From Desulfurococcaceae archaeon (GTDB lineage Archaea > Thermoproteota > Thermoprotei_A > Sulfolobales > Desulfurococcaceae), in NCBI GenBank assembly GCA_020833225.1, contig JAJHQS010000011.1, positions 1-38,552 of the forward strand: a stretch of DNA of 38,552 bases. The letters run 5' to 3'. The position numbers were made by a program, and so were the translations under genes. Shown piece by piece: positions 13,670 through 17,314 of this stretch. The notes beneath the pieces were generated by a model. The model worked only from the letters and a program-made list of their open reading frames with translations. It was not told the DNA's origin and did no database searches. How positions within the stretch are numbered: the stretch's first letter is position 1; the number at the start of each line of letters is the position of its first letter.

Positions 13670-14104
13670 ATGAGTCCCTTTTACATTTTTAGCGAAAAAT
13701 TAGAGAAATTAAATTTAAAATCAACAATAGTAGTCACCGCCTTAGATAGCGCCACTGGCTTAGGCTGGGATTATTTAAAACTATGTGGTTACTGTAGAGA
13801 CCTAGAGTTCTGCTTAATACTATCAATAAGCCCTATGTCCACTAGAAACTATTTCGTCAATGTTGAGGGTTTATATGTTAGTGTTAATGAAGATACACAA
13901 ATAGATCAAAAAATCATGTTGCTTTTTAAACACGCTAATTACATTGTGAAAGAGGGGCATAAAGTGTTATTCTATGTGAAAAAAGAGCGATTACTTGGAG
14001 TCTATTACACACTGTGTAGTAGTGGTGAAGTAAATTGGATCAATTATGACTACCCCTCAAGCGAGGAGTTAGAATACGTGAGTGAGGAAGAGCACTATGA
14101 TTAA
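13670..14104 (+). CDS. Orphan protein translationally coupled to XPB helicase
   Basis: A 144-residue protein that I do not recognise. It has three N-terminal cysteines (CGYCRDLEFC, around residues 39-48), mixed alpha/beta character and a very acidic tail (SSEELEYVSEEEHYD). ATG at 13670. Its last 8 nt overlap the XPB start (ATG 14097), so it is almost surely expressed with the helicase. Archaeal XPB is often encoded beside the nuclease Bax1; no Bax1 gene is visible here, and this orphan occupies the coupled position. A role as helicase partner is an inference from context only. Confidence 0.6.
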   Translation: MSPFYIFSEKLEKLNLKSTIVVTALDSATGLGWDYLKLCGYCRDLEFCLILSISPMSTRNYFVNVEGLYVSVNEDTQIDQKIMLLFKHANYIVKEGHKVLFYVKKERLLGVYYTLCSSGEVNWINYDYPSSEELEYVSEEEHYD

Positions 14105-15764
14105 GCTCAAAACTCGAGAATGGCTTGAAGAAGAAGACTTTAAAGAATTACTAAAAGTTACTGATTACATCGGATTCGAAAATGGATATAAAGTCTTCAT
14201 ATTAAACATTAAGAAGGCTTTACAAAACAACTACACTCTCAGCGATGTTAAAAACCTCATTGAAGAATTAGGTCTCGAAGTTGAAGGATCTTGGAGAGAA
14301 GTTGAGAACGCCTTTAAAGACTACTCTATAACCGTAAGGTGGGATAGTACTAGGGGTTTAGTTAGAATAGAATACCCGGTACTAATAGATAAGCTTGTAA
14401 AGAGTGTTATAGATACTTTTACTTCTACTATTAAATATAGGCGTAGAGTAAATAGTACTACTAATACTGTTCTAATTGAAATAATACCATACTATGCTTA
14501 CAGCCTCATTGCAAAACTTAGAGATCTTGGCCTCGTGATCAAAGATTTAAACGGGTTGTTTACGCCAAAACCTCTAGTAATAAAACCAGAGCTAAAAAAT
14601 ATTTCTCTAAGGAACTACCAGGAAGAGGCCCTCCAGGCTTGGATTAAAAATAACTATAGAGGTATTATAGCACTTCCAACAGGCTCGGGTAAGAGCATTA
14701 TAGCACTTGCAGCTATTACCAATATTGCTGTTAGAACTCTAATAGTAGTATATACCAAAGAGCAGTCATTCCAGTGGCGGGAGTTTTTATTAAAATACAC
14801 AAATATACCGTCAAATATGGTTGGATTATTTTACAGCGAGGAGAAGAAGCTCTCGCCAATAACTATAATAACTTATCAGAGTGGTTTTAGATATATTAAT
14901 CAAATCTCGCCGTACTTTGAAATGATCATAGTTGACGAGGTACATCACTTACCAGCAGAGAAATTCAAGTATATAGCTTTACATAGTCTAGCCCGCTTTA
15001 GAATGGGTTTATCAGCAACGCCTGAAAGAGAAGATGGCAAACATGAAGAGCTCTTCCCCTTAATGGGGGGTGTAGTGTATTATAAGTCTCCCAGCGAGCT
15101 CGTAGAGCAAGGATATTTAGCCCCCTACCAGTTAATAACAATTAGAGTTAAACTAGATAAAGAAGAGCTTTTAAAGTATAAACAATTACGCCAACTATAT
15201 TTACAGTACTCTAAAGGGAAGAATTTTAAAGAAGTACTTGAAGAGGCACGTAAAGGGGTTTTAGATTCTATTGAGGCCCTTAAAATACACAGCGAGCTGA
15301 GAAAATTAATAGCACTCTCTAATTCAAAAATAAATAAAGCAGTTGAAATCGCCATTAAAGAATATGAGAGTGGAAATAAAGTCATAGTGTTCACGCAGTA
15401 CATAGATCAAGCGAGAGAAATAGCTGAAAGGACAAAGGGATTATTATTAATAGGCGAAATGCCTGAAAATGAAAGAAAACGAGTTCTCGAAGTATTTAAA
15501 CAAGCACCACGAGGTATTTTGGTGGTTACGACAATAGGTGATGAAGGTATAGATATACCAGACGCCAACGTGGGCATAATCGTATCTGGAACTGGTTCTA
15601 AAAGACAATTCATACAGCGATTAGGTAGGCTTTTAAGACCAAAAACTAAGGGAACATGTGCAAAACTCTACGAGATCATTGCTGAAAAAACTTCAGAAGA
15701 ATATCAACTAAGAAAAAGACGTAGTGTAATAGATGCCTTCATAGACCTTGAAAACGATACATAA
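14097..15764 (+). CDS. xpb: XPB-family SF2 DNA helicase
   Basis: A 555-residue DNA-dependent ATPase. An N-terminal region (1 to about 170) precedes helicase domain 1: Q-like LRNYQEEALQAW, Walker A LPTGSGKS (193-200), Walker B DEVHH (280-284), LSATPEREDG. Domain 2 has VIVFTQYID, TIGDEGIDIPDANVGII and motif VI QFIQRLGRLLRP. The DEVHH and SATPER-x-DG combination is typical of XPB rather than other SF2 helicases. It unwinds or remodels DNA in nucleotide-excision repair and transcription. An open frame reaches back to GTG 14082, but ATG 14097 with GTGAGG upstream is the better start. Operonic with the orphan at 13670. Confidence 0.92.
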   Translation: MIKLKTREWLEEEDFKELLKVTDYIGFENGYKVFILNIKKALQNNYTLSDVKNLIEELGLEVEGSWREVENAFKDYSITVRWDSTRGLVRIEYPVLIDKLVKSVIDTFTSTIKYRRRVNSTTNTVLIEIIPYYAYSLIAKLRDLGLVIKDLNGLFTPKPLVIKPELKNISLRNYQEEALQAWIKNNYRGIIALPTGSGKSIIALAAITNIAVRTLIVVYTKEQSFQWREFLLKYTNIPSNMVGLFYSEEKKLSPITIITYQSGFRYINQISPYFEMIIVDEVHHLPAEKFKYIALHSLARFRMGLSATPEREDGKHEELFPLMGGVVYYKSPSELVEQGYLAPYQLITIRVKLDKEELLKYKQLRQLYLQYSKGKNFKEVLEEARKGVLDSIEALKIHSELRKLIALSNSKINKAVEIAIKEYESGNKVIVFTQYIDQAREIAERTKGLLLIGEMPENERKRVLEVFKQAPRGILVVTTIGDEGIDIPDANVGIIVSGTGSKRQFIQRLGRLLRPKTKGTCAKLYEIIAEKTSEEYQLRKRRSVIDAFIDLENDT

Positions 15765-16169
15765 TTACAACTTTTAATTTAAAATTATATTGAAACATTT
15801 GATTATATAGCTATATTTCAAACGTTATTTCTATAAGTCACATATAGTCCTATTATATTTAATAACTTGATATGTCTTTTTTACGCAGTATGAATTGCGT
15901 TGTCAAGTCCACTTTTAAATACTAAAGTGCTCTCAGGGATCGCACTTTGATCCTAGCTATGGTATTAGGTAGAGAAAAGGCACATATTTCTACCTAACAC
16001 TCAAAGAGCAATGAAGCTCATAATCCACGAGAATATTACTACTAAGAAGTGTTCTAAAAAGAAGAAGGATATTCATTTTAGTTTTAGAGATTTGTATTTT
16101 CCTTTATAAAGAGTGTTAGGTGTATAGCTTATTGAAAATTATACCTAACACCTAACCTCAGTGATTAAC
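15765..16169 (+). promoter_or_regulatory. Gene-free 405-bp leader with mutually exclusive inverted repeats
   Basis: No gene is visible here. Three complementary sets stand out. AAAGTGC (15924-15930) pairs with GCACTTT (15942-15948), or alternatively GGATC (15937-15941) pairs with GATCC (15949-15953). Four related segments follow: A TTAGGTAGA (15965-15973), B TCTACCTAACACTC (15989-16002), C GAGTGTTAGGTGTATA (16111-16126) and D TATACCTAACAC (16140-16151). A can pair with B, B with C, and C with D, so A:B plus C:D excludes B:C. A TATA-like TTTAAATA lies near 15914 and another, TTTATAAA, at 16103-16110, so C and D could also be operators around a start site. D ends 18 nt before the downstream ATG. 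Either an RNA switch or a protein operator cluster is possible. Confidence 0.5.
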
Positions 16170-16613
16170 ATGAATAAATCCGCGGAAAAATCTGCTAGGC
16201 TCGAAGAAGTAGTCAGAAGATTAGCTGTTAATATTGAGTTATTTAGTCAAGTAGAGAGGTATTATAAAATGTTTGTTAATAGTTATAGAGATCTTGTTGA
16301 AGTATTAAGGAGATTAAAGCTCTTAGAGCTTGTTGACTTCTATAAGAAGTATAAGAATTGTAGTATTGAAGAAACCTGGGTTCTTAATAAGCAGAAAAAG
16401 AAGTACTATTATTATTACTTGAAATGTAAGAAGGGAGGGCCTAGAAGCATTTATCTGGGCAGATCCCTAGGATCTTATAGCACGTTGAGACAAGTCTCAA
16501 AGAGAGCTTTTGAATTAAAACAACTTATAGATAGAGTAGGAGAGTTACTTATAGAATTTGAAAAAGAGTTATTATTATATATGAAGTATTTAAAACAACT
16601 GAGAGAAGTATAA
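16170..16613 (+). CDS. Orphan coiled-coil protein with Lys/Tyr-rich centre
   Basis: A 147-residue protein. The N-terminal (about 1-60) and C-terminal (about 105-147) parts look like long amphipathic helices or coiled coils (LEEVVRRLAVNIELFSQVE; LKQLIDRVGELLIEFEKELL). Between them is a basic, aromatic beta-like stretch, NKQKKKYYYYYLKCKKGG followed by PRSIYLGR, reminiscent of small proteins such as DUF6788 seen in mobile or viral contexts; I cannot confirm membership. ATG at 16170 follows GTGAT closely; a GTG at 16161 is in frame. The elaborate repeat leader directly upstream suggests specific regulation. Codons are strongly A/T-biased. Confidence 0.6.
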   Translation: MNKSAEKSARLEEVVRRLAVNIELFSQVERYYKMFVNSYRDLVEVLRRLKLLELVDFYKKYKNCSIEETWVLNKQKKKYYYYYLKCKKGGPRSIYLGRSLGSYSTLRQVSKRAFELKQLIDRVGELLIEFEKELLLYMKYLKQLREV

Positions 16614-16636
16614 TGTTGTGAGTTAAATACTTATGC

Positions 16637-17314
16637 TTATATTATATTGAATTTTGAACTTTGTGCAGCTAAGTAATCCAATATTATTTTTATCACGAGC
16701 TCGTCCTCTCCAGGTTTTTCACATCTCCTTAGAACTAGTACTTCTGCTCTTTCGCGTTTTTCTATCCAAGCATATGGTAATACATTAGTGTTCACTACAC
16801 AGATAGCTATGACTATCTTCTGTTTTCTTAGCATTTCCTTGTATAATCTATAAGCTCTGATTATATTATTTCTTCCTTTAGTAAAGTACGCTATGCTTTT
16901 CACGGTGAGTGGGAAACATAATAATATGTCTTCGCAGTCTACTTTGTTTTCAACTATAATGTTTTGTTCAATAAGGGTTTTGTAATCACTACTAATTAGA
17001 GCTGTTAGTATGTTTAATAGTTGTTGAGTTTTAAGTTTTACGCTGTCAATCCAAGCATCTCTACTAGTCTTATACACTTTGAACTCTGAATTTTCAAGTA
17101 AAATAATTTCATGGTGCGGTATTATGAATGTAAAAGGTGCTATAGCAATACTATATATTTTTTCACCTGTAGCTATATCTACTACGCTGGGTGTTATGCT
17201 CATGTATAATTCTAAAACTCCTTGTTTAATTAATATATTAAGTAAGCTTAACAACGCATGCGCGGAGAGGGGTTTTAACTCTACAATGAGTGTATTAGGA
17301 TGGAAGTGTGGCAT
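16637..17314 (-). CDS. Hypothetical protein, 225 residues
   Basis: An uninterrupted 225-codon frame from ATG 17314 with normal composition and codon use for this window. I recognise no family. It is mostly hydrophobic beta and alpha segments (LIVELKPLSAHALLSLLNILI; YSIAIAPFTFIIPHHEIILLE; KIVIAICVVNTNVLPYAW) without a clear membrane span or signal peptide. A C-terminal charged strand RAEVLVLRRCEKPGEDE follows. It lies convergent with the orphan at 16170 (23 nt apart) and upstream of alba in the same direction. It could be a restriction-like or nucleic-acid binding protein, but nothing visible decides this. Confidence 0.6.
   Translation of the reverse strand: MPHFHPNTLIVELKPLSAHALLSLLNILIKQGVLELYMSITPSVVDIATGEKIYSIAIAPFTFIIPHHEIILLENSEFKVYKTSRDAWIDSVKLKTQQLLNILTALISSDYKTLIEQNIIVENKVDCEDILLCFPLTVKSIAYFTKGRNNIIRAYRLYKEMLRKQKIVIAICVVNTNVLPYAWIEKRERAEVLVLRRCEKPGEDELVIKIILDYLAAQSSKFNII

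Follow-up and report, generated by a model that had tools for sequence, protein, structure and literature searches.

To our knowledge, hardly anything has been described of the regulators that integrated viruses and plasmids carry in the Desulfurococcaceae and neighbouring groups. The closest described system is ORF80/Stf76 of the Sulfolobus pRN-type plasmids and the plasmid-virus pSSVx, a winged-helix protein that recognizes TTAA-N7-TTAA sites 60 bp apart. Two palindromic sites lie 5′ of its own gene, one of them overlapping the BRE; the spacing of the sites is conserved among homologues and autoregulation has been proposed (PMC4027180). Further examples are F55 of SSV1 and SvtR of SIRV1, ribbon-helix-helix viral repressors that bind their own promoter and several further sites of the viral genome. 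The action of F55 belongs to integrated, fusellovirus-like lysogeny, and its sites are tandem ATAGATAG repeats (PMC5569661). Exclusion of TBP/TFB or the polymerase from the promoter has been described for F55 (PMC5569661) and proposed for ORF80/Stf76 (PMC4027180).

Here we analyse a locus in a window of 38,552 nucleotides (the whole stretch of DNA analysed) from a Desulfurococcaceae archaeon. An earlier note had picked out four segments, A (15965-15973), B (15989-16002), C (16111-16126) and D (16140-16151), ahead of an apparently orphan gene, and had read them as an RNA switch. The four segments are present there with exactly the sequences given. The note overlooked that all of them belong to a single repeat family, of which many other genomes have related copies. 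A with B, and C with D, form two copies of one 39-base dyad, GTGTTAGGTNNA-N15-TNNACCTAACAC, at 15962-16000 and 16113-16151. Their geometry is identical, with 12-nt arms that are complementary at 11 of 12 positions and separated by 15 nt, and TACCTAACAC recurs exactly in both. This exceeds chance expectation: among 2,000 dinucleotide-preserving shuffles of 15765-16169, 54 contain any such inverted repeat and none contains two with the same arm sequence. The features of the locus are as follows.

15765-16636, no strand: gained segment of 872 bp with both dyads and the gene, between an xpb-like helicase gene (14082-15764, plus strand) and a gene at 16637-17314 (minus strand).
15913-15919, plus strand: TATA-like TTTTAAA 5′ of dyad 1, a putative element recognized by its sequence.
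15924-15953, plus strand: overlapping small hairpins, present in the window and not found at related loci.
15962-16000, no strand: dyad 1 (A and B), GTATTAGGTAGA-N15-TCTACCTAACAC, arms complementary at 11 of 12 positions, the single arm mismatch being position 3.
16011-16109, plus strand: 32-codon ORF between the dyads, with no family match, not seen at related loci and probably not a gene.
16103-16110, plus strand: TATA-like TTTATAAA directly 5′ of dyad 2; a transcript start about 25 nt further on would land within dyad 2.
16113-16151, no strand: dyad 2 (C and D), GTGTTAGGTGTA-N15-TATACCTAACAC, ending 9 bp 5′ of GTG 16161 and, as the earlier note had it for segment D, 18 bp 5′ of ATG 16170.
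16135-16143, plus strand: AAAATTATA within dyad 2, 26-35 nt 5′ of ATG 16170, a candidate alternative TATA box for a leaderless transcript.
16170-16613, plus strand: gene of the presumed dyad-binding protein, 147 aa from the ATG or 150 aa from the in-frame GTG upstream at 16161, with no Pfam, NCBIfam or PHROGs family above cut-off.

A decayed duplicate of the 16170 gene between the two dyads was considered and rejected, the alignment being at the level of shuffled sequence (34 of 300 shuffles were as good).

The dyad is most likely the binding site of the adjoining gene's own protein rather than part of an RNA switch. Our preferred reading, to which we give a probability of roughly 0.6, is that the tandem dyads are the operator of the 16170 protein, which would bind both and repress its own promoter, and that gene and dyads together make up a module that came from integrative viruses or plasmids of the Thermoproteota. 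The protein would bind the dyad as a dimer, and the bound protein may exclude TBP/TFB or the polymerase from the core promoter. Crenarchaeal transcripts usually start near the start codon, and a dyad ends 1-26 bp 5′ of the start codon of the gene in the window, in G001, G002 and G114 and at L221; the dyad would thus cover or adjoin the core promoter. A TATA-like sequence lies within the dyad spacer itself in G002 and L221. In elements with 6-13 dyads spread between genes, the same protein family could set the expression or the nucleoprotein state of the whole element.

The association of dyad and gene family is tight, and in heat-loving archaea the two move together within integrated mobile elements. 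The gene is no orphan: of 214 genomes from the order, 12 have a homologue. Exact dyads were found in six of these 12 and in four of the 202 genomes without a homologue (Fisher P = 1.4e-6). Across 84,980 genomes the strict dyad pattern matched 13 stretches in nine genomes, all Thermoproteota MAGs, and the gene is encoded nearby in seven of the nine. Three of these genomes were found by DNA only (L221 from the Methanomethylicota, L222 and L225), and all three encode a homologue (E ~1e-22). Because these new loci came through the DNA and not through the gene, the strict DNA search is an independent test of the link. L221 even copies the layout of the window, with two tandem dyads followed by the gene, whose ATG lies 8 bp on. 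The strict-dyad exceptions without the gene are a 3.9-kb contig (G030) and a genome whose match resembles an element remnant (G118). When 15 dyad-bearing loci were compared, the gene family recurred at more than four, as no other family did; several gene-bearing loci had been found through the gene, so that counts including them are not independent. Four proviral or plasmid-like elements carry the gene and 6-11 dyads together. No homologue was found in the dyad-bearing genomes G024, G118, G123 and G030 (the 3.9-kb fragment), and no dyad of the searched kinds in the homologue-bearing G013, G041 and G081. The earlier note had remarked that the region looks made for its gene and had offered, as its alternative, C and D as operators around a start site; with dyads tied to the gene family across the Thermoproteota, both remarks find support.

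Most copies lie on mobile elements. The pattern TGTTAGGT-N-ACCTAACA is present in 8 genomes among 61 relatives, and a reversed-pattern control gave one match overall. The copies are concentrated on single elements, with 10 on a 21.6-kb contig (G035), six in G017 and eight at two contig ends (G002). In G010, which has a complete 1.9-Mb chromosome, all seven dyads lie inside one 17-kb element and none elsewhere. SSV-type integrases are found in G010 and G017 and a HerA/VirB4-like ATPase in G002, and we therefore take these elements to be integrated viruses or plasmids. Of 35 dyads, 27 fall entirely outside ORFs of at least 60 aa, though such ORFs cover 82-95% of the sequence, and the remainder mostly overlap over-predicted ORF starts or doubtful ORFs. 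They sit between divergent, tandem and convergent genes (e.g. between convergent 3′ ends at L150:5762-5919 in G010, L153:1060 in G002 and L146:18931 in G035), and the mix of orientations resembles random intergenic placement. With many dyads away from promoters in this way, simple repression leaves their placement unexplained. With a loose pattern, two more lone copies turn up outside the window in its genome, one on contig C69 and one on C80 (L159:9508-9544 and L160:1833-1869), with 13-nt spacers as against 15 nt in the window; these are perhaps remnants of a G002-type element. In viral contigs a loose 16-base dyad pattern gave 119 stretches, and the strict pattern and the protein profile gave no match. 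A tblastn search of phages and plasmids gave no match. A first protein scan of genome contigs gave none either; the DNA pattern later gave some. The papers in which the dyad sequence turns up are all unrelated.

The AlphaFold model of the 16170 protein (pLDDT 88) opens with three helices (3-17, 22-48 and 51-61), continues with a three-stranded sheet at 64-97 and closes with a long helix at 101-146. The sheet bears a conserved Y-rich strand and SIYLG (KKYYYYYLKC...SIYLG), and it is reasonable to suppose from the model that it contacts DNA. Fold searches gave no hit with E < 0.001 and no confident DNA-binding match. Among the homologues, one matches Arm-DNA-bind_3 weakly (E = 0.006) and two weakly resemble DUF6788 (PF20586) where the sheet lies (E = 0.073); the G081 homologue scores 13.7 bits, well short of the curated threshold of 27.2. 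The window protein itself gave no DUF6788 match, and we found no literature on that family.

How does this compare with the described regulators? Like ORF80/Stf76, the 16170 protein is a small archaeal protein of mobile elements, with two sites 5′ of its own start in the window and at L221. However, the site here is GTGTTAGGTNNA-N13..16-TNNACCTAACAC and not TTAA-N7-TTAA. The 12-nt half-sites stand 13-16 nt apart, the dyads 49-151 bp apart, and an element may hold up to about 13 sites. The modelled fold of helices, three strands and a long helix also differs, and no wHTH family matched. The best reading by analogy is that the 16170 family works like ORF80/Stf76 and is unrelated to it in fold and site. 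No homology to F55 or SvtR was found; their ribbon-helix-helix fold takes some 55-60 aa, whereas the protein here has 147 aa and another predicted fold, and the sites of F55 are not long dyads. We infer that the locus represents an unnamed family of putative DNA-binding autoregulators with tandem operators, i.e. a new family of operator-like dyads with their presumed regulator.

The conservation of the dyads also bears on whether they act as DNA or as RNA. Our comparison set comprised 49 unique dyads with 98 half-sites. The half-site 9-mer GTGTTAGGT is nearly invariant, and the arm positions after it hold the consensus AGA. The outer nine positions are too invariant for a covariation test. At arm positions 10-16 the two halves agree no better than in within-genome shuffles, so that the inner stems show no covariation. 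Spacing is conserved as well. The spacer is 13 nt in G002 and G010, 15 nt in G035 and the window and mostly 16 nt in G017 (15-18), and is usually constant inside one element. Orthologous dyads (G002/G024 and G035/G030) keep their arms while the spacer sequence has been replaced at equal length. As the halves are conserved singly without pairing, the spacer keeps its length while its sequence drifts, and dyads occur in every gene orientation, we read the site as DNA and not as an RNA stem.

The RNA switch of the earlier note, in which A:B with C:D would alternate with B:C in the manner of an attenuator or riboswitch, now seems highly improbable. Every proposed pairing is able to form, including the 11 exact base pairs of B:C (15992-16002 with 16111-16121), the leader folds more stably than shuffles (z = -3.3), and L221 likewise has two tandem dyads 5′ of the gene. 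However, B can pair with C because B and D, like A and C, are copies in a duplicated palindrome, and the two palindromes account for the excess stability of the leader. In the thermodynamic ensemble of 15940-16172, A:B with C:D reaches -53.9 kcal/mol as against -51.5 for B:C, and the probability of B:C is about 0.03. An Rfam search of the leader returned nothing near a gathering score. No covariation was found at the inner arm positions of the 49 dyads. Mutually exclusive pairing is not conserved at homologous leaders, as two upstream dyads recur only in L221 and a single one in G001, G002 and G114, and dyads also lie 3′ of genes and between convergent genes. The second pair of exclusive hairpins that the note described does exist (AAAGTGC 15924-15930 with GCACTTT 15942-15948, against GGATC 15937-15941 with GATCC 15949-15953); at nine homologous or dyad-bearing loci no counterpart was found. 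The four segments probably never act as alternative RNA hairpins.

The history of the locus brings in the main rival to an operator. A module has been inserted here: in four congeners neither gene nor dyads stand between the flanking genes, which overlap by 4 bp (G002, G007) or lie 17 bp (G005) or 132 bp (G004) apart. In G001, of the same genus as the window, 706 bp occupy this site; there the gene runs the other way and has a dyad on either side. One gain followed by inversion and two separate gains cannot be told apart. The window locus is a gained cassette, apparently derived from a mobile element. At the orthologous site in G006 there is a 696-bp gap (L211:1325-2020) without gene or dyad, possibly another insertion.

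It could be, then, that the dyads are ends for recombination or transposition, used by or together with the protein, in a palindrome-bounded cassette resembling the REP/RAYT systems or mobile cassettes but with a non-HUH protein. RAYTs are HUH tyrosine transposases, and the likeness lies in short intergenic palindromes that are linked to one gene and able to flank it. A dyad stands on each side of the gene in G001 and G114, the window and G001 cassettes occupy the same gained locus in opposite orientation, five G001 copies are scattered among host genes, and dyad pairs flank toxin-antitoxin-like PIN (VapC-like) modules in two distant genomes (L187:5326-6492 in G001 and L207:4846-6604 in G091). 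Nevertheless we consider this main rival unlikely. No Y1 HUH transposase gene was found; the window protein lacks histidine, and hence an HUH motif, and matches no recombinase or transposase family. There are few dyad copies, and most of them stay on mobile elements; they are scattered between chromosomal genes in G001, as REP elements are, and in G010 all lie in one 17-kb element. Orthologous dyads keep their position between related elements, and neither target duplications nor precise dyad insertions were seen. It is slightly more doubtful that a dyad-gene-dyad cassette of the Thermoproteota moves with a small non-HUH protein, sometimes with toxin-antitoxin cargo and with a half-site that changes with the protein, which would be a new mechanism of mobilization or element maintenance. 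Also improbable, to much the same degree, is that the dyads are partition, packaging or nucleoid sites, where the protein would cover or bridge many of an element's dyads to serve segregation, replication or silencing, with control of its own gene secondary. Such a role would suit the elements with 6-13 dyads in any gene orientation, the arrays of 88-bp period in G017 and, in G002, G035 and G017, the motif GGGGTTTAA/CATGARAGGGG that flanks dyads at about -40. The stand-alone chromosomal copies (the window, G001, G114 and L221) speak against it, as they keep their dyads beside the gene with no element to segregate and no ParA/SegA partner in sight. Dyads between convergent genes, dyad pairs flanking the gene and dyad-flanked PIN modules keep both partition and cassette in contention beside the autorepressing operator.

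Half-site variants track protein lineages, i.e. lineages with other homologues carry other half-sites (GTGTTAGACAGA, GTGTTAGAGAA). G001 has seven dyads, all of the GTGTTAGACAGA type, and none occurs in seven congeners. The homologues of family f6 (G069 and G090) form a separate YWYWY group, and its dyads have the half-site GTTAGAGAA and a total length of about 42-44; G069 has 13 copies in a 26-kb stretch that lies 8.4 kb from its homologue, and G090 has six. A general search for GTGTTAG-N18..42-CTAACAC agrees, with at least two matches in 8 of the 12 homologue-bearing genomes and in 8 of the 202 others; the half-site variants were chosen after looking, so this is supportive and not independent. 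Natural variants (GGTAGA, ACAGA, AGAA) paired with their homologues allow specificity residues to be mapped in the presumed DNA-binding sheet. An apparent one-off RNA switch thus becomes a testable protein-DNA family, and as one family of 150 aa and sites of 37-47 bp can be found together by DNA alone, the elements become recognizable in raw genomes.

Some further observations concern the surroundings of the dyads. In several elements an inward-reading motif (GGGGTTTAA in G002, CATGARAGGGG in G035 and G030) flanks the dyads at a distance of about 37-45 bp, on one side or on both, giving composites of 120-125 bp (L151-L153, L146, L148 and L154); it is absent at the window, G001 and G114 copies. 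The GGGGTTTAA motif may be a promoter, although it also flanks dyads between convergent genes. The linker of the G017 array and of a G002 pair is itself a GGGG..CCCC dyad. Dyads with a different half-site (GTGTTAGGAAGAA and relatives) stand beside an integrase-like gene in G021 (L200:397-965 and L201:5124-5162), on contigs where no homologue of the window gene was found. IS607-like genes (MerR-type HTH and TnpB-like) adjoin dyads in G002 and G024 (L152:11264-11497, L153:6241-7753 and L157:5851-7804). On different contigs of G002, L151:7509-7545 and L153:7811-7847 are exact reverse complements with similar flanks, which suggests that an inversion took place or that they are the two inverted ends of a single element. 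Finally, a 52-bp perfect palindrome in G060 (L206:6527-6578, GTGTTAGGAAGGGGTTTACTAAGGCC...) brings the GTGTTAGG half-site together with the GGGGTTTA motif as a single inverted repeat.
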